Shown piece after piece: positions 16,626 to 26,866 of a stretch of DNA of 34,418 nt. The position numbers were made by a program, and so were the translations under genes. The stretch is from NCBI GenBank assembly GCA_027306755.1, contig DAHUZE010000073.1, forward strand, positions 1-34,418, written 5' to 3'. Within the stretch, counting starts at the first letter, position 1; the number at the start of each line of letters is the position of its first letter. This stretch comes from Acidimicrobiaceae bacterium (GTDB lineage: Bacteria; Actinomycetota; Acidimicrobiia; Acidimicrobiales; RAAP-2). The notes beneath the pieces were generated by a model that saw only the letters and a program-made list of their open reading frames with translations, made no database searches and had not been told where the DNA came from.

Positions 16626-18917
16626 TCAGCCCGTCGTCACCGCAGCCAGGCTCGTGAGGTCGATGGCTCCGCGCATGAGCAGGGGCTCCAGGTCAGCTGG
16701 TGCCAGCGGGCGCGACAGCAGGTACCCCTGCGCCCGCCGGCAGCCGAGCTGCACCAAGGTCTGGAGGTCCTCGATCGTCTCGATGCCCTCTCCCACGACC
16801 TCGAGCTTGAAGGCTCGGGCCAGGCGCACGATCGTCTCCACGATCGCCTGGTCGGTCGGGTCATGTGCGACTCCGTCCACGAACACGCGGTCGATCTTCA
16901 GCACGTCCACCGGGAGCGTCTTGAGCTGGCTCATGGAGCTGAACCCGGTCCCGAAGTCGTCGATGGCCAGCTTGACGCCCATGGAGCGGATGTCTCGGAG
17001 CACTCTGACGGCCTGCTCCACGTCCGCAATGACCGCCTGCTCGGTGATCTCGAGGCACAGCAGCTGCGGCGGGAGCCCGGACCGGCGCAGGCTGTCGGAG
17101 ACGGAGCGCACCAGCCCGGCCACCGCCAGCTGGGCCGCCGACATGTTCACCCGCATCACCAGCTCGGTGCCCGGATAGGCGCGGCGCCACCGGGCCAGCT
17201 GCGCGCATGCCTCCTCCAGCACCCAACGGTCGATGTCGGTGATCAGATGGGTCTCCTCGGCGACCGGCACGAACTGGGCGGCTTCGACCAGCCCCTGCCC
17301 GGGCCGGTGCCAGCGCACCAGCGCCTCCACCGCCAGCAGGCGGCCGTCGCAGAGGTCGAACTCGGGCTGGTAGAGCACCCGGAGGCTGTTGTCAGCCAGA
17401 GCCTGGCGCAGCAGCAGCTCGATGCTCGAGCGCTCGGCGTGCTGGCCCTCCAGCTGGTGGTCGAAGACCACGGTGCGGTTCCGGCCTTGCGACTTGGCCG
17501 AGTAGAGCGCGATGTCGGCTCGCCCGAGCAGCTCCTCGCCGGTGGCCGCCTCTGCGTCCTCGCTCAGAGCGATGCCCACGCTGCCCGTGTGCGCAACCCG
17601 CTGGCCGCGAACCTCGATGGGCAGGGCGATGAGGTCGAGCAGGCGGCTGGCCGCGGAGACGGCGCCGAGCCCCCCGTCCACGTCGTTGAGGATCACCACG
17701 AACTCGTCACCGCCGAGCCGTGCGGCAAAGTCGCTGGGGCGCAGCGACGTGCGGATGCGGTCGGCGATCACTTGGAGCACCTTGTCGCCTGCGCCGTGGC
17801 CCAGGTGGTCGTTCATCACCTTGAACCGGTCCAGGTCGATGAAAAGCAGGGCCAGCTTGTGGCCGCCGTCCTGGAGCTTGGTGACCTCGTCCAGCAAGGC
17901 GCGGCGGTTGGGCAGGCCGGTGAGGTCGTCGGTCAGGGCGCTCCGGCGGAGCCGGTCCTCGGCGTCGACTCGCAGCAGCAGCTGCACGAGCAGCGCCGCG
18001 ATCGCCCGAAGGGCGTTGACCTCTTGTTCCGACCAGGTGTAGGTGGAGAGGTAGACGAATGCCAGAACTCCCTCGGTGGTGTCGCCGTGGACAAGCGGGA
18101 CGGCCGCCCCGGTGAACTCCTCCGACCAACCTGCGTCCTTCACCCGTTGCAGGTACCGCTCGTCGGTGTCGGCCGCGTTGCGCACCACCAGGGGGACCTT
18201 CAAGTCCTTGGTGGCTGCGAAGATGGGATCTGCGTCGAACGGGACGACGCCCAGGGGGTTCTCCTCGATCGGCATCCCGAGCGGCGGGTAGAACGCCATC
18301 AGCACGCTCACGTTGCGGGCGCGGTCGTTGCGGCGGAGGAAGGCGACGTCGGAACCGAGGAACTGTGCGAGCCTCTCCACCGCCCAGTCCAGGGCCGACT
18401 CCAACGTGGGGCCCGTCGTCGACATGAGACGCTCACTGATGGTGGAGACCAGGTCGTCCAGGCGCCTCTGGCGTGTCAGCGCCCCTGTCGACGCACTGGC
18501 CGAGGTGGTCTTGCCGCAGAGGCGGGCGAGCAGGGCAACCGTGGACCGCTCGTGCTCGGTGAGGCTGCCGCGATCGCGCAGCGCCAGGGCGAGCACGCCG
18601 GCCAGCTCCCCGTCCGGCGATGTCCCGGACTCGCCGGACGGGATGGGCTCCACCCACCCGGTCCACGTCTCGGCGACGTTCTCGCCCCATGGTCCGTTGT
18701 CCGCCAGCGCCTTTGCCGCCAGTGAGCTCAGACCGGTAGCCACGTCCGCGTGCACGAGGTCGGCCCAGACGACTGGGCTCTTGGTGGACGCGCGCGGTAC
18801 GAGCGCGGCGGCCACCGCCCCCTGCACGAGCCGGACGCTGCCTGCAAGAAGGTCATCGATGGTGCCTTCTTGCAGGCGGTCAGTCGCGAATACCGAGTCT
18901 TCGCTCATCTTCCCCAT
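16626..18917 (-). CDS. GAF-GGDEF-EAL cyclic-di-GMP cyclase/phosphodiesterase (Rv1354c-like)
   Basis: A bifunctional-type c-di-GMP enzyme of 763 residues. The N-terminal 310 residues contain a GAF-like sensor region (WAVERLAQFLGSDVAFLRR to TYTWSEQEVNALRAIA). The cyclase domain has DDLTGLPNRRALL and an intact RLGGDEF (GGDEF at 402-406) with the inhibitory RxxD site (RPSD, 393-396) five residues before it. The EAL domain has EAL (531-533), NMSAAQL, EITEQAVI, AIDDFGTGFSSM, LKIDRVFV and VVGEGIET, all the usual metal and catalytic positions. ATG 18917 is chosen; ATG 18908 is also possible. Domain order matches M. tuberculosis Rv1354c, and the neighbour is Rv1355c-like, as in that species. It is separated from that gene by 198 bases. 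Confidence 0.92.
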   Translation of the reverse strand: MGKMSEDSVFATDRLQEGTIDDLLAGSVRLVQGAVAAALVPRASTKSPVVWADLVHADVATGLSSLAAKALADNGPWGENVAETWTGWVEPIPSGESGTSPDGELAGVLALALRDRGSLTEHERSTVALLARLCGKTTSASASTGALTRQRRLDDLVSTISERLMSTTGPTLESALDWAVERLAQFLGSDVAFLRRNDRARNVSVLMAFYPPLGMPIEENPLGVVPFDADPIFAATKDLKVPLVVRNAADTDERYLQRVKDAGWSEEFTGAAVPLVHGDTTEGVLAFVYLSTYTWSEQEVNALRAIAALLVQLLLRVDAEDRLRRSALTDDLTGLPNRRALLDEVTKLQDGGHKLALLFIDLDRFKVMNDHLGHGAGDKVLQVIADRIRTSLRPSDFAARLGGDEFVVILNDVDGGLGAVSAASRLLDLIALPIEVRGQRVAHTGSVGIALSEDAEAATGEELLGRADIALYSAKSQGRNRTVVFDHQLEGQHAERSSIELLLRQALADNSLRVLYQPEFDLCDGRLLAVEALVRWHRPGQGLVEAAQFVPVAEETHLITDIDRWVLEEACAQLARWRRAYPGTELVMRVNMSAAQLAVAGLVRSVSDSLRRSGLPPQLLCLEITEQAVIADVEQAVRVLRDIRSMGVKLAIDDFGTGFSSMSQLKTLPVDVLKIDRVFVDGVAHDPTDQAIVETIVRLARAFKLEVVGEGIETIEDLQTLVQLGCRRAQGYLLSRPLAPADLEPLLMRGAIDLTSLAAVTTG

Positions 18918-18940
18918 CCCGAGGATCGACGTCGCCTCAC

Positions 18941-18960
18941 ATAATAGTCCCTGAGCAGGG
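18941..18960 (-). promoter_or_regulatory. Probable promoter and small inverted repeat before the GGDEF-EAL gene
   Basis: On the minus strand TATTAT (18946-18941) is a strong -10 hexamer, 23 bases before the ATG at 18917. Just upstream, CCCTG-CT-CAGGG (18960-18949) is a 5+2+5 inverted repeat that could bind a regulator. No good -35 is visible. This suggests that the GGDEF-EAL gene can be transcribed separately from the MoeY-like gene. Confidence 0.45.
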
Positions 18961-19115
18961 CAAGGTCGGACTGCTTCCCCCCTTGAGCCGGTGCGAGCGC
19001 TTGTTCGGGGCCCGGGCAAGCGTTCGCAGGACCGGGGGAGCGCCCTCGGGAAGCTGCCGTCGTCCGCCGAAGGCGATCACGAAGTTCGGATAACGGGAGC
19101 GGGACCTGCCGACCG

Positions 19116-21977
19116 CTAGACCGTTTGGGCGCCGGCTACCTCCAGCAGGGCGTCAAGGGGGAGGCGGAGGCTACGGCGCGTGGGCGCAGGCGCGTGGCTC
19201 AGGCGCAGCACGAGCGCCATGGCTGTGGAGCTCCCGATGCCCACCACGGAGCGAAAGCGGTCGGCCAGGTTGCGCAACTCGGGAGCCCACCGCGGCCCGC
19301 AGAGTGCCTCGTAGTCCGCCTCCTTCACCGCGTAGAGGAAGGCCGGGCCCACCGCGTGCACCGCGAGGCCCCCCGATTGCGCCTCGATCCATACGCGCTC
19401 GAGCGCCATACCGCCCTTCACGTACGATGCAGGGCTGCTGCTGGCCATCGAGATCACGGCCAGCGCCGAGCTCGAACGGACGGCGAGCTTGAGGTAATCG
19501 CCGAGTGCATGGCCGGCGTCCCAGCGTTCCAGCAGCTCCATCACATCGCCGCGGCGCATCAGGGAAAGGGATGCCGTCTCGAAGCTGGACAGCTCCAGCG
19601 TCGAGACGTCGATGCCGGTCCGCACATCGTCGCCGGGGAAGCGCATCTCCCGCACGGTCGCCTCCCGCAGCTGGCGCGTGAGGAAACGGACCCGCTCCGT
19701 GGCCGCCAGCACGTCGGCGCACCCGGCCATGCGCTCCTGGTCGGTCACCAGGTGGAGCGTGGCCCCTTCCAGCGAGGCGGCACGCGTCATGGCTTCCACC
19801 ACATCCAGGTCCAGCGCTTCGGGAACGCCGTGATGCCGATTGCAGCACCGGGCCAGCATCGGCTCGTAGAGCGTGGCCAGGGAGCCTCCGTCCGGTTCGA
19901 CCCCGGGCTCTTCGGGCACGCAGTGCAGTGCGGCCACCACGTCCGACAAGGGATGGGGGAAGAGGTCCACCCGACCGGCGAGCCCGCGATGGGCGGCGGC
20001 CACCCGCCCGTTGAACGCCGCCGCGCCGATGCCCACGTAGCTCGCCCGGTGCCGGACGTCCATCACGCCGCAGCCGCGCTCGGAGACGAGCTCGAGCTCC
20101 AGCGTGCGGCCGCGCAGCACGAAGCGCCATGGCTGCCCGTTGCCGCACGACGGGGCGAGGGCGGCAGCCCGGGCAACTGCAAGCATCGGATCGGCCGGCG
20201 CGTCCCCCGTCAGTGTCGAGCCGTCGGGCGCGACCTCCGGAGCGGAGGGCTCGACCCCTGTCCGCTCGCCTCCAGTGTCCGGGGGATCCCGGAGTGAGCG
20301 CAGAGCCTCGTCCATGTCCAGGCGGGTCCGTCCCGAGGGTACGGGCTCGCCGATCCCGATCCGGCGCACGGCGGCGGCGATCGAGGCTCCCCCGAGCGCG
20401 ACCTCGGATCCGAGCTGAGGCCAGGTCGAGAGCGTCCTGCCGATCTCTGCCATCGACGCCGCTCCCCGCGCCGACGCCTGGTCCGCCTCTACGATGGCCA
20501 GGACGTACGGGATCTTCTGGGCCACCGACAGGGAGCGCATCTGCTCAGCGCTCATGTCGCCGAGCAGGCCGTGGAAGAGCGGGCGATCGGGCTCCACGTC
20601 GAAGCGCTCCACGTCCAGCAGGCCGCGGTCGCTCGTCTCCATGACCACCGCCACTCCCTGGCGGCGGGCGATCTCACGGACGAGGAGCTTCACGTCCAGC
20701 TCGTCGCACTGCTCGATCACGATATCCAGCCCGGCCACGAACTCGTCGGCGTTCTCCAAGTTGATGCCCTGCGGAACGAGGTGCACCGGCAGGTAGGGGT
20801 CGATCTCGGCCACGCGGCGGGCGGCCGCCACCGCCTTGTTGACGCCCACGTCGAAGACCGACGCCGGGATCCGGTTGAGGTTCGTCAGCTCGATCTCGTC
20901 AAAGTCCGCAAGTCGGAGCTCGCCGCAGAGTCCCTCCAGGGCGATCGTCGCTGCCGCTGCGTGCCCGGAGCTCAGGCCGACGATCCCCACGCGCTGGCGC
21001 CGGAGACGGTCCTGCTCGACGCGGGTGATCCGGTTGCGGTTGCGGTCCAGGCGCACGCTCGAGAACGCGTCCGGGCCCAGCATGCGGACGACGACACGCC
21101 GCCACGGGAAGTAGACGTGGCGCGGCGCCTCGTCCGCCAGGGTGGGATCAGGGGCGGGGAGGAGCCGCAGCAGCTCGGCCCGCTGACGCTCCACGACGTC
21201 CAGCACGGACACCGTGGGATCGGTGCTCAGGTTGGCCAGGACGTGGCGATCGGAACGCTGGCGGCTGTCGAGCACCACCGGGCGCCAACCCGTGGGCACT
21301 GCGGTGCGCGACGTCCGAGCCAGCTCTTCCGCCTCCTCGCGCAGAAGTTGCGCCCGCGCTGGGTCCACCACATCGCGATAGCGCGCCCGGCGCAGCCCGG
21401 TGAGGATCGTGCGGTACTTCTCGCTGGGGTACGGCGCGGACTCCGTACCCATCATGAGGCTCCCCACGCTGGCTAGCAGGGGCTCCATGCGATCGGCCAC
21501 CGCGGCCAACATCACCTCGGCGCCCAGCCACTCCACCGCATGCACGCAGCACCGGGCCAGCGCGGCGGAAACGGCGTGGTTCCCGTCGCCGCTCAGCTGG
21601 CGCCACGCGCCTTTCATCTCCACGACTCCGTAGGCTGTGGCAGCGTCCACCGTCTCCCGGTGGTCGTCCCATTCAGGTGAGTCGGCCATCTCGGCGAGTG
21701 CCTGGGAAGCTGACGCCTCGTCGAGCGGACCGTGGCAGCGGAGGCCGGCCACCACGCGGTCGTCGGGGTCCACGCCAACAAAGAAGATGGAGACGCCGTC
21801 ACCCCGCTGGAATGCCCGTGGGTCAACGAGGGAGCGGATCCCGTAGCGCTCGTACTCCCGCGCCGCGCCCTCCAGATATGCCGCCCACCGGTCCGGGCGG
21901 CTGGCCGGGTGGTGCGCCTCCCAGCGAAGGGCGCTGGCCCGGTCAAGGAAGGAGGCGCCGTAGCTGAACGAGCTCAT
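19116..21977 (-). CDS. Rv1355c/MoeY-like fusion: acyltransferase-like, ThiF/E1-like and nitroreductase domains
   Basis: A 953-residue multidomain protein of the Rv1355c family; the M. tuberculosis member is named MoeY, but I know of no demonstrated function. Residues 1-230 look like a GNAT/autoinducer-synthase-like fold (tentative). Residues about 315-560 are ThiF/E1-like: VGIVGLSSGH (330-339) is an altered nucleotide loop, followed by ADFDEIELTNLNRI (about 358-371), the acidic and Asn/Arg signature of E1 enzymes. Residues about 595-900 are nitroreductase-like, with SCGNGQPWR at 610-618, where the FMN-binding family often reads SxxNxQPWR. No CxxC zinc pairs of canonical ThiF/MoeB are obvious. 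The ATG overlaps the stop of the upstream gene by 3-4 bases (ATGA), so the two are coupled. It may adenylate and oxidise a small substrate; that is inference. Confidence 0.85.
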   Translation of the reverse strand: MSSFSYGASFLDRASALRWEAHHPASRPDRWAAYLEGAAREYERYGIRSLVDPRAFQRGDGVSIFFVGVDPDDRVVAGLRCHGPLDEASASQALAEMADSPEWDDHRETVDAATAYGVVEMKGAWRQLSGDGNHAVSAALARCCVHAVEWLGAEVMLAAVADRMEPLLASVGSLMMGTESAPYPSEKYRTILTGLRRARYRDVVDPARAQLLREEAEELARTSRTAVPTGWRPVVLDSRQRSDRHVLANLSTDPTVSVLDVVERQRAELLRLLPAPDPTLADEAPRHVYFPWRRVVVRMLGPDAFSSVRLDRNRNRITRVEQDRLRRQRVGIVGLSSGHAAAATIALEGLCGELRLADFDEIELTNLNRIPASVFDVGVNKAVAAARRVAEIDPYLPVHLVPQGINLENADEFVAGLDIVIEQCDELDVKLLVREIARRQGVAVVMETSDRGLLDVERFDVEPDRPLFHGLLGDMSAEQMRSLSVAQKIPYVLAIVEADQASARGAASMAEIGRTLSTWPQLGSEVALGGASIAAAVRRIGIGEPVPSGRTRLDMDEALRSLRDPPDTGGERTGVEPSAPEVAPDGSTLTGDAPADPMLAVARAAALAPSCGNGQPWRFVLRGRTLELELVSERGCGVMDVRHRASYVGIGAAAFNGRVAAAHRGLAGRVDLFPHPLSDVVAALHCVPEEPGVEPDGGSLATLYEPMLARCCNRHHGVPEALDLDVVEAMTRAASLEGATLHLVTDQERMAGCADVLAATERVRFLTRQLREATVREMRFPGDDVRTGIDVSTLELSSFETASLSLMRRGDVMELLERWDAGHALGDYLKLAVRSSSALAVISMASSSPASYVKGGMALERVWIEAQSGGLAVHAVGPAFLYAVKEADYEALCGPRWAPELRNLADRFRSVVGIGSSTAMALVLRLSHAPAPTRRSLRLPLDALLEVAGAQTV

Positions 21978-23518
21978 CCGGCGCGGTGCGGGCCGGCCAG
22001 GAACCGGTTCAGCGCGGCGAGCACGGCGCGGCTGGCCGTCTCGGCGTCTGTCTCGCCGTGGGCCACGCCGATCCGCTCGGCTGCGCCCCCCCCAAGGTCG
22101 GTCGACCTGTCGCTCGGGCTGCCGGCCGGCTCGACCGCGCTGCGGGGAGCCAGCACGACCACGACCGGCTCGCCGGGGATGGTCCGGGAGCGCTCAGCGT
22201 GCACGAGGTAGAACGGCACGGCGCGGCCCACGGCCCCGAGAGCGACGAGCGTGGCCTGCGCAGCGCCGATCAGCGCTGCGGCCGGCGCCCGGCCCGTTCC
22301 CCGGGCGGCGCCGAGCGCCACCGTGACCTCGCTCACCCCTGCGTTGCTGTCGAAGCTGGCGCCGATCAGGTTGACCCTCGGGGAGTGGTTTCCGCCGACG
22401 ATGGTGCCAGCGGCCGCAACCGGCACGGCCGGTGGCGGCCCACCCGGTACGCCGGGGTCGGCGCGCCCGGCCGCGCTGGTGCCGTTCCCGTGACCCGCGG
22501 GGCCGGCGTTTGCGCCGTCGCCGGCGTTGTCGCCGTTCCCGTTTGCGTGCCCAACGGCCGGCTCGCCGCTCTCGCCGCTCTCGCATCGCGGCGCTCCGCC
22601 TTCCGGTGGGGGCGCCGTCTCCAAGTGGACCACGAGGTTCGGGGCGTGCCGCCGCACCGTCGTGTCGACGTCCGACTCGGCCGATCCCGCTCCGAGGGCG
22701 ACGACGGTCAGGGTCGGCCCGTTGCCGTTCTGCGATTCACCCACGTAGGCGACGGAGGGCAGCAGGCGGAGCTCCAACTCCAGCGCGTTCTCGGCGGGAG
22801 GTGGTGGAGCATCGGCGCCGAGCTGAGCCAGGCGCTCGGTCAGCAGCCGCCAGAGCTCTGAAGGGTCGACCGAGTCCTGCGGCGTAGTGACCGTGGCCGC
22901 CAGCAGGTCCACGTCGCCCGCACCCCGCGCGCTGAGCGCTGCCCGCACGCGGGCCAGGAACGGCCGTACCGCATCCGCCCCGGCGTTGCCGAGCAGGGCC
23001 AGGGCGGTGCCGGGGCTGACGACCCCTGCCTCGTCACCCGAACGGAGAGCCTGGTCCATGGCTGCGGCCAGCGCCCGCCAGGTGTCGCCGGTGGTGTCAC
23101 CGGGTTCGCCGCCGGCGGTCGTAACCAGGACGGCGGTGGTCGACCAGCGATGGCGGGCGCCGCAGGCGGCGACCCGGGCCAACGATGCCTCGACGGCCTT
23201 CCGGGTGAGCAGCCCGGTGGACCCGTCAACCAGGGCGTCGACCGCGGCGGCGCGTGCGGCGAATGCCGCCTCGCACACCTCGCCGAGCAGCATGCCGACG
23301 GCCGGCTCGATCGCCGGCTCTCCGTAGAGCCCGGTCGGTCGCTCAGCCAGCCGTTGGACGTCGCCTCCGGTGGGCGGATGACCACCCCGATGGCGGAACA
23401 CCTGCGCGGACAGGCCGGGGGGATGGAGCACGAGCCAGGCGTCCTGGAGCCCGTAGCGCGAAGCAGCCTCGTCGATGACGCGGTACGCGGACTCGATCGG
23501 GTCCGCGTACCGCGTCAT
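21974..23518 (-). CDS. Degenerate GGDEF-domain protein with C-terminal alpha/beta domain
   Basis: A 514-residue protein. Residues 1-90 form an N-terminal sensor-like region. DGSTGLLTRKAVEASL (98-113) corresponds to the DxLTGLxNR start of a GGDEF domain. Where the active-site loop should be, there is SPGTA (168-172) in GVVSPGTALALLGNAG, so it cannot be a normal cyclase. A Gly/Asn/Pro-rich linker rich in GNG/AGDG units follows (around 315-370). The final region is a repeat-like alpha/beta domain (VNLIGASFDSNAGVSEVTVA, then an Ala-rich helix, then VVVVLAPR and a last helix AVLAALNRFL). The frame runs back to 23728, but ATG 23518 follows a promoter-like sequence. It overlaps the MoeY-like gene. 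Function is unknown; it may be a c-di-GMP sensor or scaffold. Confidence 0.75.
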   Translation of the reverse strand: MTRYADPIESAYRVIDEAASRYGLQDAWLVLHPPGLSAQVFRHRGGHPPTGGDVQRLAERPTGLYGEPAIEPAVGMLLGEVCEAAFAARAAAVDALVDGSTGLLTRKAVEASLARVAACGARHRWSTTAVLVTTAGGEPGDTTGDTWRALAAAMDQALRSGDEAGVVSPGTALALLGNAGADAVRPFLARVRAALSARGAGDVDLLAATVTTPQDSVDPSELWRLLTERLAQLGADAPPPPAENALELELRLLPSVAYVGESQNGNGPTLTVVALGAGSAESDVDTTVRRHAPNLVVHLETAPPPEGGAPRCESGESGEPAVGHANGNGDNAGDGANAGPAGHGNGTSAAGRADPGVPGGPPPAVPVAAAGTIVGGNHSPRVNLIGASFDSNAGVSEVTVALGAARGTGRAPAAALIGAAQATLVALGAVGRAVPFYLVHAERSRTIPGEPVVVVLAPRSAVEPAGSPSDRSTDLGGGAAERIGVAHGETDAETASRAVLAALNRFLAGPHRAG

Positions 23519-23521
23519 CGA
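23472..23521. repeat. Near-perfect 50-bp palindrome over the start of the degenerate-GGDEF gene
   Basis: The arms 23472-23492 and 23501-23521 are exact reverse complements over 21 bases. The 8-base centre TCGATCGG is itself palindromic except for one pair (T23493/G23500). In the minus-strand mRNA the start codon (23518-23516) lies in the 5' arm, so the transcript would fold into a very stable hairpin burying the AUG. Both strands read a similar peptide beginning MTRYAD. The plus-strand version is not taken as the gene start of the neighbouring cyclase. Confidence 0.93.
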
Positions 23522-23532
23522 GGGCGCTGAAG

Positions 23533-23560
23533 AAAATCCGTCCTCGTTGGCGCGCGGCAA
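23533..23560 (-). promoter_or_regulatory. Probable promoter of the degenerate-GGDEF/MoeY-like operon
   Basis: On the minus strand TTGCCG (23560-23555) and GATTTT (23538-23533) are spaced by 16 bases. The start of transcription would be near 23526, about 8 bases before the ATG at 23518 and just 5 bases before the 50-bp palindrome, so the hairpin would form the very 5' end of the message. Confidence 0.45.
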
Positions 23561-23780
23561 GTGGATCACACCCTTCCCCTCCAGGGCCGGGATCCGGCGC
23601 AGGCGCCGTACCCCGGGAGGTCCCCTGGACCCTCTTACTGCCATTGCGTACTGCAGAGATCCTAGGCATCGTTCGGCACTGCCGGGTGGATCCGATCGAA
23701 AGGTGACGCTGGCGACCCCGCCCGGCATCCACCGGCCCTCAGTCCGGTGGAATGGACCACCCGCGGTCTACGGTTTGCCA

Positions 23781-25562
23781 ATGGTGGATGTGGCGACGCA
23801 CAGGCCTGTCGGCGAGGTGCTCGAACTGGCGCTCGACCTGTGCCTGGGCGCGGCGGCGTTCAGGGTGACGCGGACAGGATCGGTTGACGTCGTGCTGGCG
23901 GACCCGGGGGCAACGGAGGACGCACTCGAGAGGATCCGGGCCTTGGCCAGGAGCTGTCTCGCGCATCCCGGAGCCGGTCGCCGGCCCTTCTTCTGGAACG
24001 CCGAGGTATCGACAGAAGCCGACGCCGCGGACCGGTCCCTCGCCTGCGTGGCTGTCCCGGTCTGGAACGACCACGGTCCGAACGGGGTGCTTGGCGTGGT
24101 GGACACCTGGTTGCCCGAGCCCGACGATGCCCAGCGGGGCGCCCTGCTCAGGCTGGCAGCCGAGCTGGCCCTCGACGGCCTGACCGACGAAAGCCACGTC
24201 GATGCAGGCGTCCGGACATGGACAGAGGACCTGGTCGTCGCCGGTTCACCCGCGCCGCCGGGAACACCGACGGGCACAAGCGCGGCGGAGCGGCGGTTCC
24301 TCGGTGAAGTGCTGCGCAGCCTGCCCGACGCTGTGGTCATCACCAAGGGGGACGGGACGATCCTCCTCGCCAACGACGCGTTCGCGCGCATGGTGGGCTG
24401 TGGACCGGAACGCCTGACCGGTGGCAACGTCCGGACCATGATGACGGCCACGGGGACGGGACGTGGACTGGGCGCCAGTTCCGGACGGCCGGAGGACCAG
24501 CCCTCTCGGCGACGCCTTACCGTCTCCGGGCCCGACGGCCTGATGCCGGTGACGTCGACGGATGTGCGCGTCGGCGGGAACGGCGGGCGCGCCGCGGGTG
24601 GGGGCCATGACGGGGACGACGACTTCTATGTTTCCGTGCTGCGTCCGGCGCCGTCGCCCGAGGGTTGCGCAGCCACCGAAGCGGTGGACTGCCTTGATCT
24701 GGTGGGCAGCCTGGACGACGGAATCCTCTGCCTGGACGGTACGGGCACGGTCGTGCTGGCGAACCGGGCGGCCGAGATCCTCCACGGCGCGGCCGCCCGC
24801 CGCACCCTCGTCGGCTTGCCGCTGCCCGATCCGAGCGGCCTGCGCACCGGCGACGGCCAGGCTCTCCCCTGGGACGCCCATCCCGGGCTGATCGCGATCA
24901 GGGACGGCACATGCACCACGCAACAGCTGGTCTTGGGAGGCGAAGGCGACAGCCAGCGCCACGTGACTGTCACGGCCCGCCCGTTCCCGGTGGACGGCGC
25001 GCGTGGCGCGCTGGTGGTCCTGCACGACTCGACCAGGGAGCGGCTCGAGCAGCAGCGCCTGACCCAGTACGCCCTCTACGACCCGCTGACCGGCTTGGCC
25101 AATCGCTACCTCCTCTTGGAGGAGCTGCGCCGCATGCTCCTGCTCCTCGGACGGCAGGGCGGGGCGGTCGCCCTCGTCTACCTGGATCTGGACGGCTTCA
25201 AGGCCATCAACGACGAGTTCGGGCACGACACCGGCGATGAGGTCCTGGCCGCAGTTGCGCGACGGCTGCGCGGCACGGTGCGCAGCGACGACGTGGTGGC
25301 CAGATTGGGGGGTGACGAATTCGTCATCGCCCATGCCAGCACGGAGCGGCTTCCGGACGGGGACCTCGTCGTCTCGCGGCTGCGCAAGGTACTGTCGGCT
25401 CCCTTCAGGGTGCGCAGTCAGGCGTTCGACGTGGGCGCGTCGATCGGCTGGGTCAGCACCGACAAGGGTGAGGAGGGTCCGGAGGCGTTGCTGGCGAAGG
25501 CGGATCGTGCGATGTACCTGCAGAAGCGCAACCGCGCCTCGGCGCGGCGCGCCCCGGCCTGA
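23781..25562 (+). CDS. GAF-PAS-PAS-GGDEF diguanylate cyclase
   Basis: A soluble sensor cyclase of 593 residues. Residues 1-140 resemble a GAF domain (SLACVAVPVWNDHGPNGVLGVVDTW-type core). Two PAS domains follow, about 173-290 (SLPDAVVITKGDGTILLAND) and about 304-420 (SLDDGILCLDGTGTVVLANR). The cyclase domain begins YDPLTGLANRYLLLEELRR and has intact RLGGDEF (GGDEF 510-514), with the inhibitory RSDD placed five residues upstream, so activity and product feedback are both expected. The frame is open from 23475, but the N-terminal extension is Arg/Pro-rich. ATG 23781 is preceded by TACGGT (23769-23774) at 6 bases, which suits a leaderless start. It is divergent from the degenerate-GGDEF gene, with a 262-base gap. 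Confidence 0.88.
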   Translation: MVDVATHRPVGEVLELALDLCLGAAAFRVTRTGSVDVVLADPGATEDALERIRALARSCLAHPGAGRRPFFWNAEVSTEADAADRSLACVAVPVWNDHGPNGVLGVVDTWLPEPDDAQRGALLRLAAELALDGLTDESHVDAGVRTWTEDLVVAGSPAPPGTPTGTSAAERRFLGEVLRSLPDAVVITKGDGTILLANDAFARMVGCGPERLTGGNVRTMMTATGTGRGLGASSGRPEDQPSRRRLTVSGPDGLMPVTSTDVRVGGNGGRAAGGGHDGDDDFYVSVLRPAPSPEGCAATEAVDCLDLVGSLDDGILCLDGTGTVVLANRAAEILHGAAARRTLVGLPLPDPSGLRTGDGQALPWDAHPGLIAIRDGTCTTQQLVLGGEGDSQRHVTVTARPFPVDGARGALVVLHDSTRERLEQQRLTQYALYDPLTGLANRYLLLEELRRMLLLLGRQGGAVALVYLDLDGFKAINDEFGHDTGDEVLAAVARRLRGTVRSDDVVARLGGDEFVIAHASTERLPDGDLVVSRLRKVLSAPFRVRSQAFDVGASIGWVSTDKGEEGPEALLAKADRAMYLQKRNRASARRAPA

Positions 25563-25570
25563 CGTCCGCC

Positions 25571-26866
25571 GTGGACGGCCAGTCCGCAAACGGCGGCGCC
25601 ATCGCCAACCTCCTTCGGGTGGCGCGTACGGAGTGCCGCGCCACGGCCGCCTTCGCGGTCGTGAAGGACGGCCACGAGGATCTCCAGGTCCACCGGATGC
25701 CTCCGTCCGACGACGGAGCACTCGGCATCTCCGACGACACGCTGGCCCAGATCGCCCGGCGCGCTTCGGGAGATCCGGAGTTCGGCAGCGGTCGCCCGTT
25801 CGTGCGAACCGTCCAGCTCGCGCCGGCCACGATCCTGGGCGTGGCACCCATCCCGGGGCACGGCTCCGGCGCGATGGTCGGCGTCCTGTGCGACGACCTC
25901 TCCGCGCTCGGCCAGCCGCAGCTGGACCTCCTGGACCGGTTGGCCCGGCGGGTAGACCGGCACATCCGCGCCCTGCGCACCGTCGGCCCGGCAAAGGCCC
26001 CGTCGGATGCCCCCGCCACCGCCGCCATCCCGGCGGAACCGGCGATGAGGACCCCCGCCCGGGTGGAGGGACCGGGCACGGCCGCCCCGACAGCGGGCAC
26101 GGCCGCCCCCATAGGAAGCCTGTTCGATCGGCCGCCTCCGATGCCGCCGCCGCTCGGCCTGGGGGGCTTCGGAGACGAGCCCCGTGGAGCGGTCGCGCCG
26201 TCGGGGTGCGATCCGGGAGGGGCGCGCACGTGGCCGGGCCGGGCCGAAAGGTCTTGGAATGCCGCTGCCGGGAGCCTGACCGGCGATCTGGACCTCCATC
26301 CCGAGCCCCGGGGTCCGCATCCCGAGCCCCGGGGTCCGCTTCCCGGCTGGCCCGGGGCAACCGCGGCGGCGGTCCCGCCAGAGGGTCGCCCCCCGGAGCC
26401 CCCGGAGCCGCCGGAGCCCCCGGCCCCGGGAGCGTGGTGGGCACCCTCGGATCCCGTGGCCGGGCTCCCCGGCCTGGGCCAGTTCTTCAGCCGGGCCGGC
26501 CGGCTGCTGGGCAGCGAGGCCCGGTTGTCGGGGGCGGTGGCACTGGTGCTGGTGGAGGTGCCGGGCGAGCAGACAGCGGCGGCCGCGGCGCGGGCACTCG
26601 CGGCGCAGCTCCGGTTCTCCGATCCGCTGGCCCGGGTGGACCGGGACCTGTTCGCGGCCGCGGTACTGCTCTTCCCGGACAGCATGCGAGGTGACAGCGT
26701 GGAGGAGCGTCTGGGTGCAGCCGTGCGATCGGCGCTGGACTGGCTGGCTCCCGTCCGCACGACCCACGTGCTTGCGGAGCCTGGCGACCGGCGGGACGTT
26801 GACGAGTTGCTGCGTCAGGCGCTGATCGGGTTACCGGGCCGGACGGCGGATCGGAACGCTCGATAG
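25571..26866 (+). CDS. GAF-like protein with Pro-rich linker and degenerate GGDEF domain
   Basis: A 431-residue protein starting at GTG 25571, 8 bases after the cyclase stop, so in the same operon. Residues 1-140 look like a GAF domain (ILGVAPIPGHGSGAMVGVLCDD). Residues 140-295 are a disordered Pro/Gly/Ala linker that contains short DNA repeats. Residues about 299-430 fit a GGDEF fold: GQFFSRAGRLLG, AVALVLVEVPG, then SDPLARVDRDLFAAAVLLFP. RVDRDLF (355-361) stands in the place of RLGGDEF, so the catalytic glycines are lost. It might bind or regulate the neighbouring cyclase. No close family is recognised. Confidence 0.75.
   Translation: MDGQSANGGAIANLLRVARTECRATAAFAVVKDGHEDLQVHRMPPSDDGALGISDDTLAQIARRASGDPEFGSGRPFVRTVQLAPATILGVAPIPGHGSGAMVGVLCDDLSALGQPQLDLLDRLARRVDRHIRALRTVGPAKAPSDAPATAAIPAEPAMRTPARVEGPGTAAPTAGTAAPIGSLFDRPPPMPPPLGLGGFGDEPRGAVAPSGCDPGGARTWPGRAERSWNAAAGSLTGDLDLHPEPRGPHPEPRGPLPGWPGATAAAVPPEGRPPEPPEPPEPPAPGAWWAPSDPVAGLPGLGQFFSRAGRLLGSEARLSGAVALVLVEVPGEQTAAAAARALAAQLRFSDPLARVDRDLFAAAVLLFPDSMRGDSVEERLGAAVRSALDWLAPVRTTHVLAEPGDRRDVDELLRQALIGLPGRTADRNAR
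26297..26338. repeat. Exact 21-bp direct repeat in the linker of the degenerate-GGDEF gene
   Basis: Two adjacent identical 21-base copies (26297-26317 and 26318-26338) encode a repeated HPEPRGP heptapeptide. Other small repeats lie nearby: GGGCACGGCCGCCCC occurs twice near 26075-26110, and a Pro-Glu-Pro unit runs near 26395-26425. Slippage in a disordered linker is the likely origin. Confidence 0.85.

Follow-up and report, generated by a model that had tools for sequence, protein, structure and literature searches.

A predicted N-acyl amino acid oxazolone synthase gene with a probable cyclic di-GMP signalling set of its own in an Acidimicrobiaceae bacterium

In mycobacteria, Rv1356c (TrzA) N-acylates tryptophan and Rv1355c (TrzS) turns the product into an N-acyl tryptazolone, its ThiF domain carrying out the cyclisation and its flavin oxidase domain the desaturation; the in vitro assays of TrzS used the M. 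smegmatis protein (PMC12856293, 2025). Acid and alcohols destroy oxazolones (PMC12856293). A ThiF cyclase and a flavin oxidase in one chain are common to this pathway, to OxzAB and TyzACB (PMC12856293, PMC10404671) and to the locus described here. The same report points out that two cyclic di-GMP (c-di-GMP) genes, rv1354c and rv1357c, lie next to the M. tuberculosis locus, which would agree with a role in signalling, and its discussion counts the physiological role of acyl-oxazolones as a major unresolved question. Both the chemistry and the mycobacterial c-di-GMP adjacency are thus already in print (PMC12856293). MSDGC-1, the Rv1354c homologue of M. smegmatis, both synthesises and breaks down c-di-GMP, and the cells depend on it to survive starvation for long; a deletion of it has been described (PMC2994820). 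Here we describe a trz locus of five genes, P0001 to P0005, in contig DAHUZE010000073.1 of an Acidimicrobiaceae bacterium (GCA_027306755.1, a 2.55-Mb assembly, 82% complete); the whole 34,418-nucleotide stretch is referred to as the window. The gene composition and the class of chemistry can be read with high confidence, and on balance we favour the view that this locus combines a gene for N-acyl oxazolone biosynthesis with a dedicated set of c-di-GMP signalling genes. As in the TrzA-TrzS pathway, there is an acyltransferase and a nearby c-di-GMP enzyme gene (PMC12856293). In contrast to that pathway, the acyltransferase is fused in front of the synthase in a single 953-residue protein, and the window adds extra GGDEF genes, a LeuA-type domain and a riboswitch; the product of its enzyme is a predicted one.

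The fused protein is P0002, which matches the Rv1355c family (NCBIfam NF005901) with 870.3 bits against a cut-off of 476. Its ThiF domain is followed in the same chain by the flavin oxidase domain, and the motifs are largely kept in an alignment of 12 proteins. D425 in the ThiF domain is invariant among these and appears to correspond to D217 of TrzS; TrzS residues R540 and Q651 found no certain placement on P0002. The sequence APSCGN in P0002 reads APSGGN in most relatives. The domain in front of the ThiF part went unnoticed in the initial annotation. Searches of Pfam and of Protein Data Bank (PDB) sequences gave no relevant family for it, with a weak GNAT match in one of 42 members, and only the fold search did so. 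An AlphaFold2 model of residues 1-225 (pLDDT, the per-residue model confidence, 95) has as its best PDB match the N-acyl amino acid synthase FeeM (2g0b; E 1.1e-7, template modelling (TM) score 0.58 by query), followed by many acyltransferases of the GNAT fold including acyl-homoserine lactone synthases. The N-terminus of P0002 is therefore predicted to fold like FeeM. A profile seeded from the same residues matches a separate open reading frame (ORF) near trzS in mycolic-acid-type loci, which from its position we take to be TrzA. The closest relatives with a name are Actinomycetes and Acidimicrobiales metagenome-assembled genomes. Among the surveyed relatives (the best 80 of 450), trzA is fused to trzS in 66 loci; in the other 14 it is separate or, in L108, split. 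In Mycobacterium hubeiense (L109, 9785-12763), the TrzA and TrzS domains are found in one ORF, unlike the separate genes of M. tuberculosis.

The nature of the chemistry deserves a comment, as P0002 had been annotated as a MoeY-like fusion. The likeness to Rv1355c was correctly recognised, while the molybdopterin chemistry implied by the old gene name was not upheld. P0002 does carry a domain of the ThiF/MoeB superfamily, which is what a molybdopterin (MoeY/MoeB) enzyme would have, but it falls well short of the MoeB cut-offs (for TIGR02355, 50.4 bits against 376.55), and an acyltransferase-type domain is fused ahead of its ThiF part. Moreover, the biochemically studied member of its family makes oxazolones (PMC12856293). 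The MoeB score and that report led us to discard the molybdopterin reading, which we regard as scarcely credible. Since Rv1355c is TrzS, the label "MoeY" is out of date, and the remark in the initial annotation that no function had been described for such a set is overtaken by the N-acyl tryptazolone synthesis of Rv1356c-Rv1355c (PMC12856293). By analogy with this family, the acyltransferase domain of P0002 would N-acylate an amino acid, probably an aromatic one, the ThiF domain would close the ring using ATP, and the flavin oxidase domain would desaturate it using O2.

Directly downstream of P0002 lies P0001, in which Pfam finds GAF, GGDEF and EAL domains. Its GGDEF and RxxD motifs are intact (RPSDFAARLGGDEF), and its EAL motifs were judged intact by eye. 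P0001 is predicted to be a synthase/phosphodiesterase of c-di-GMP of the Rv1354c/MSDGC-1 type. The name DcpA is also in use for proteins of this type. Its domain order and its place beside trzS are those of Rv1354c and MSDGC-1 (PMC2994820); in contrast to them, P0001 is only one among several c-di-GMP genes of its locus. The adjacency of the GGDEF-EAL gene rv1354c to Rv1355c in M. tuberculosis, which the initial annotation had mentioned, agrees with PMC12856293, and its expectation that such a partner is conserved beside Rv1355c homologues is borne out by two samples. In a draw of 396 genomes from the phylum, 17 match the trz family, 16 of them above cut-off; in a draw of 296 genomes from the class, the matches above cut-off are six, in the genome of the window and in five others of its family, and a seventh match covers ThiF only. 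A GGDEF-EAL ORF lies within 6 kb of all 18 full-length loci that were fetched from these genomes as well as in the window, adjacent in most and farthest, at more than 5 kb, in L039 and L040. Of the 80 surveyed loci, 76 have a GGDEF ORF within 5 kb and 74 within 300 bases. The four that have none (L066, L068, L097, L099) offer less than 1.2 kb of downstream contig; L066 and L097 have no GGDEF in 9.9 and 5.1 kb of upstream contig. Counting GGDEF domains above 40 bits (weaker hits were dropped), the density per 100 kb is 19.7 in the first 2.5 kb of flank and 17.2 from 2.5 to 5 kb, but 1.0 from 5 to 7.5 kb and 2.4 from 7.5 to 10 kb. The c-di-GMP association of trz loci thus exceeds chance, and the counts go the opposite way from an adjacency that is rare outside Mycobacterium.

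The nearest GGDEF-EAL gene is downstream of the synthase, on its strand, in 71 of the 80 loci, and upstream, again on its strand, in two. Seven lack GGDEF and EAL in one ORF within 5 kb; in six of these the downstream contig is 3.1 kb or less, and in L111 the gene is split. Two overlapping ORFs make up the GGDEF-EAL gene in L111 (12941-15269), L112 (12796-15125), L104 (8417-10617) and L084 (9862-12079), probably through sequencing or assembly frameshifts. A midpoint-rooted tree comprised 42 sequences, Rv1354c itself not being among them: 30 GGDEF-EAL sequences that are adjacent to trz, drawn from the window and the surveyed loci (of which 30 were entered), and 12 non-adjacent ones. L112 contributed no row because its ORF is split. 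A branch with support 100/99 sets all 30 adjacent proteins, P0001 included, apart from nine of the 12 non-adjacent ones. Three further rows share the adjacent side and are from trz loci as well: L122 and L125 each contribute a tandem copy, and the third is L041_5789, whose long branch makes its position unsure. The label "adjacent" needs three changes on this tree, and 0 of 500 shuffles were as low. As the sampled adjacent genes share one side of a strong branch, the trz and GGDEF-EAL pair looks co-inherited. Within the window's family, GGDEF genes are present in all five trz-positive relatives and in two of the 13 trz-negative ones. In one genome of 2.3 Mb (G250) the sole two GGDEF matches are both in the trz locus, making it a natural minimal system.

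Table 1. Features of the trz locus and of the riboswitch unit beside it (window coordinates)
Feature	Start	End	Strand	Description
P0001	16626	19019	minus	GAF-GGDEF-EAL, predicted Rv1354c-type c-di-GMP enzyme; 797 residues from the listed TTG
P0002	19116	21977	minus	TrzA-TrzS fusion, 953 residues; predicted one-chain N-acyl amino acid oxazolone synthase
P0002, flavin-dependent oxidase (nitroreductase-type) domain	19308	20189	minus	about residues 597-890
P0002, ThiF-type cyclase domain	20490	21047	minus	residues 311-496
P0002, N-acyltransferase (TrzA/FeeM-like) domain	21303	21977	minus	residues 1-225
P0003	21974	23518	minus	514 residues from the likely start; degenerate GGDEF and C-terminal LeuA-type regulatory domain
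P0003, LeuA-type (allosteric) domain	21995	22378	minus	about residues 381-508, placed by alignment with a modelled relative
P0004	23781	25562	plus	PAS-PAS-GGDEF, predicted diguanylate cyclase; GGDEF and RxxD inhibitory site intact; likely start at 23781
P0005	25571	26866	plus	degenerate GGDEF protein
49-nucleotide hairpin element	26871	26919	minus	between P0005 and the riboswitch unit; identical in 5 of 5 loci
40-codon ORF	26926	27048	minus	start codon exactly 76 nucleotides past the aptamer in 5 of 5 loci
c-di-GMP-I-GGC riboswitch aptamer (RF03167)	27124	27198	minus	Rfam, 68.2 bits, gathering score 59
Promoter-like sequence TTGCGG-17-TATGGT	27230	27258	minus	same spacing in 5 of 5 loci

The five ORFs are found where the initial annotation had placed them and are divergently arranged as it said, with P0003-P0002-P0001 as the minus-strand arm (P0003 and P0002 overlap by 4 nucleotides) and P0004-P0005 as the plus-strand arm (with a gap of 8). 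Its distinction between two apparently active c-di-GMP enzymes and two degenerate GGDEF proteins also agrees with our data, the motifs of P0001 and P0004 being intact and the loss in P0003 and P0005 being confirmed by profile comparison. P0003 has no Pfam GGDEF match, yet its family profile aligns with the GGDEF profile at 98.7% probability (E 2.1e-16), the signature having been lost. Overlooked in the initial annotation was the C-terminus of P0003, whose counterpart is a separate gene in most of the relatives that have it. For a clean member from L110, the model (pLDDT 86) gave leucine-bound LeuA (3fig, E 4.5e-5) as the best Foldseek match and also matched the isoleucine-bound regulatory domain of citramalate synthase (3f6g and 3f6h; for the latter, a TM-score of 0.67 by target length). 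Unrelated folds, that of MreB for one, come near by E-value (1.5e-4), yet their TM-scores are near 0.2. By sequence, 21 of 37 members match Pfam LeuA_dimer (PF08502) at E up to 1, the best at 2.5e-5. The predicted fold of these ~125 residues is thus common to the LeuA/citramalate synthase regulatory domain; in contrast to those enzymes, the P0003-type domain is without the catalytic LeuA part and is partnered with GGDEF proteins. It occurs in 55 of the surveyed loci. In 49 of them a GGDEF domain ends no more than 415 bases ahead of its start, L054 being the one case where both share an ORF; four loci of the window type have it fused to a degenerate GGDEF, and L072 and L080 have it on its own ahead of trzAS. 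We infer that it senses an amino acid or an amino-acid-derived ligand and acts on its GGDEF partner. The 5' end of the P0003 frame contains a near-perfect palindrome of 66 nucleotides (23464-23529; ungapped 33-nucleotide arms, 88% complementary), which may serve as a regulatory hairpin or stem from a fold-back in the assembly; it is not conserved in L051 or L053 and was dropped as an element of the locus.

On the plus strand, P0004 combines two PAS domains with a GGDEF domain that is intact and carries the RxxD inhibitory site (RSDDVVARLGGDEF). It had been described as GAF-PAS-PAS-GGDEF, of which the PAS-PAS-GGDEF part stands; Pfam finds no GAF domain. Comparison with relatives suggests a start ~300 bases later than listed, so that the first ~100 residues of the listed protein are probably not translated. 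P0005 has no Pfam GGDEF match, and its family profile aligns with the GGDEF profile at 96.7% probability (E 4e-10); the signature is lost, and the GGDEF position reads DRDLF. The divergence of the P4-P5 arm (the counterparts of P0004 and P0005) from P3-trzAS is repeated in four of the 80 surveyed loci, in one of which (L052) the contig stops short of the GGDEF-EAL position.

Just past the 3' end of P0005, and thus beyond the region that had been annotated, lies an Rfam c-di-GMP-I aptamer of the GGC type. P0005 ends on one side of it and a folP-type gene lies on the other; it points tail to tail at P0005 and has the sequence and structure of RF03167 riboswitches, from which it is predicted to bind c-di-GMP. 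All four relatives with P5 have a c-di-GMP-I aptamer at the equivalent spot (RF03167 in L052, L053 and L057; RF01051 in L051), and the P5 family was found only in these five riboswitch-bearing loci. A model built from ten aptamers, including those of the five P5 loci by construction, gave no credible copy in 76 other loci, some of them on short contigs; its further matches in L077 (E 0.044) and L069 (E 0.61) we attribute to chance. The riboswitch was therefore dismissed as a feature of trz loci at large. The order of the unit is the same in all five: a promoter-like TTGCNN-17-TANNNT, the aptamer, 76 nucleotides, an ATG ORF of 40 or 43 codons preceded by a G-rich Shine-Dalgarno-like stretch, and the hairpin, whose start ranges from 1 nucleotide ahead of the stop codon's end to 6 nucleotides past it. 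A generic scan found no sigma-70 consensus promoter and no T-run terminator, and it is the identical spacing in five loci that led us to call the sequence promoter-like. All 49 columns of the hairpin are invariant. For the aptamer the share of invariant columns is 79%, for the leader 23%, for the ORF region 34%, for the upstream part 29% and for the stretch beyond 11%. The P5 frame runs through the hairpin before its stop in L052, L053 and L057 and stops ahead of it in the window and L051. The hairpin, alone about -39 to -44 kcal/mol, has a single occurrence in its own genome, and the other 295 class-draw genomes lack it even when 3 mismatches are allowed. Apart from its self-match on the opposite strand there is no second copy, which excludes a repeat element. 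6C is an example of a known small RNA, and the hairpin is no such RNA as far as Rfam is concerned, with no match even at E 5.

What this unit acts on can be read in three ways: the riboswitch would drive a peptide, or the transcript would be a small RNA, or it would act antisense on P0005. Translational control of a small protein of 40-43 residues in the sense direction is a serious candidate, if somewhat short of an even bet. The start codon is exactly 76 nucleotides past the aptamer and the 40-43 codons stay open in all five loci, and amino-acid changes are below expectation in three comparisons (null P 0.045 for window-L051, 0.001 for window-L057 and 0.012 for L051-L057); sense-direction targets are also what other riboswitch loci of the class have. 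However, L052-L053 is without such constraint (P 0.915), the reading frame differs between window/L051/L057 and L052/L053, and the three peptides scanned have no Pfam match. That the RNA is instead a c-di-GMP-regulated small RNA, with the hairpin and its C-rich loop as functional end, is possible but doubtful. The invariance of all 49 columns next to the far more variable ORF region and flank would be expected of it, as would its single occurrence in the own genome and its absence from the rest of the class draw, whereas the absence of any Rfam small-RNA family at E up to 5 would not, and a two-way terminator between convergent genes could explain the conservation. Rather unlikely in our judgement is an antisense action, in which the transcript enters the 3' end of P0005 and c-di-GMP decides whether it stops at the hairpin. 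The tail-to-tail placement in five of five loci fits it, as does the observation that c-di-GMP riboswitches are the class most often in antisense placement (PMC9943018). The window shares the 3'-end, convergent placement of those antisense-acting riboswitches and differs in having a hairpin and a short ORF between aptamer and target (PMC9943018). RNAalifold does pair a strand of the aptamer with the 5' arm of the hairpin, suggesting an antiterminator; because of its own stability, however, the intervening hairpin would probably beat this 8-pair alternative, and the antiterminator is disfavoured. Moreover, the short ORF behind its G-rich stretch explains the same RNA without antisense action, and the scan found no T-run terminator.

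Because the pairing of trz and c-di-GMP genes recurs in related bacteria, the link is probably functional, and we consider it likely that oxazolone and c-di-GMP are coupled in some direction. The alternative is that neighbours were inherited jointly without any functional coupling, and joint transfer would also make the adjacent GGDEF-EAL genes group together as they do. We hold this to be improbable, as the adjacency survives changes in gene order (downstream or, in two loci, upstream) and in the state of trzA (fused, separate or split), and GGDEF numbers drop sharply past 5 kb. Several points nevertheless weigh against the reading of a trz gene with its own signalling set. The evidence consists of sequence, fold and gene context, and adjacency can reflect joint transfer. 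The surveyed loci, as the best 80 of 450, are skewed to Acidimicrobiales metagenome-assembled genomes. On the tree the label "adjacent" takes three changes rather than one, and a single change is seen in 0% of bootstrap trees. Partial TrzS homologues (n=4) are not regularly beside GGDEF-EAL genes: L016 and L048 have GGDEF without EAL, L049 has none in 12 kb, and the gene is ~6 kb off in L050. Many trz-negative relatives have smaller genomes, so that trz and GGDEF may have been lost together by genome reduction. The match of the listed member to LeuA_dimer is below the curated cut-off (19.6 against 24.9 bits), the GGDEF of P4 in L057 reads GGDSF, so that this synthase may be dead there, and the riboswitch, being found with the P4-P5 layout only, does not belong to trz loci in general.

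With oxazolone biosynthesis coupled to c-di-GMP as the preferred reading, a circuit can be drawn, for which activities are taken from family knowledge and the coupling from gene context alone. P0001 would be the co-inherited c-di-GMP synthase/phosphodiesterase and P0004 a second synthase. P0003, in which a LeuA-type small-molecule sensor would be coupled to a dead GGDEF domain, and P0005 are probably regulatory subunits or c-di-GMP receptors. The LeuA-type and GAF/PAS domains would sense the amino acid, acyl-amino acid or oxazolone status, which would set c-di-GMP turnover through the active GGDEF/EAL proteins; the riboswitch would read c-di-GMP and control the short transcript opposite P0005. 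This particular sequence, from amino-acid or oxazolone status through c-di-GMP turnover to the riboswitch, is put forward tentatively, with ligand, direction of control and riboswitch target all conjectural. A closed circuit of oxazolone synthase, LeuA-type sensor coupled to GGDEF proteins, and riboswitch driving a tiny peptide or small RNA seems more doubtful still. If it is true, acyl-oxazolones would either feed into c-di-GMP signalling or result from it, and the short transcripts under riboswitch control would gain a new kind, which carries an invariant 49-nucleotide hairpin and faces a dead-GGDEF gene. If MSDGC-1 is, as we assume, the trz neighbour in M. smegmatis, its requirement for starvation survival suggests a stationary-phase or stress role (PMC2994820).

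In the open-licence PubMed Central literature our searches turned up neither a LeuA-type partner of the fused synthase nor a locus of this kind that has a riboswitch. There, c-di-GMP riboswitch with oxazolone returned one unrelated review; N-acyl amino acid with cyclic di-GMP and nitroreductase returned PMC12856293 only; and GGDEF with a LeuA regulatory domain, as well as c-di-GMP riboswitch in Acidimicrobi-, returned none. What the comparison adds is that the pairing of the synthase gene with one group of c-di-GMP enzymes is retained across distant actinobacteria despite fusions and rearrangements, and that in one lineage the trz locus also has a c-di-GMP riboswitch and the fold of an amino-acid sensor. 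The published remark on c-di-GMP neighbours thereby becomes testable, through the ligand of the LeuA-type domain, the interdependence of c-di-GMP and oxazolone, and the role of the riboswitch transcript.

Riboswitches of this type are not limited to trz loci. The class draw contains a match in 30 of 296 genomes, 10 of them above the gathering score. Of 31 class-draw riboswitch loci, 15 could be read, the window included, and 16 were missed by the motif search; by eye, five precede pilin-like and seven signal-peptide-like ORFs, in the sense direction. This is in contrast to the window, where the 40-codon ORF and the invariant hairpin follow the aptamer and the gene opposite encodes a degenerate GGDEF protein. 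The window's own genome has a second c-di-GMP-I riboswitch (L017, 1824-1898), shortly followed by an ORF of 70 codons that encodes several Cys and His residues. In a relative without trz (L018, 9766-9840), the same riboswitch class is found before a large secreted-looking protein, the start of which (MGQGQ...) is somewhat like that of the 40-codon ORF.

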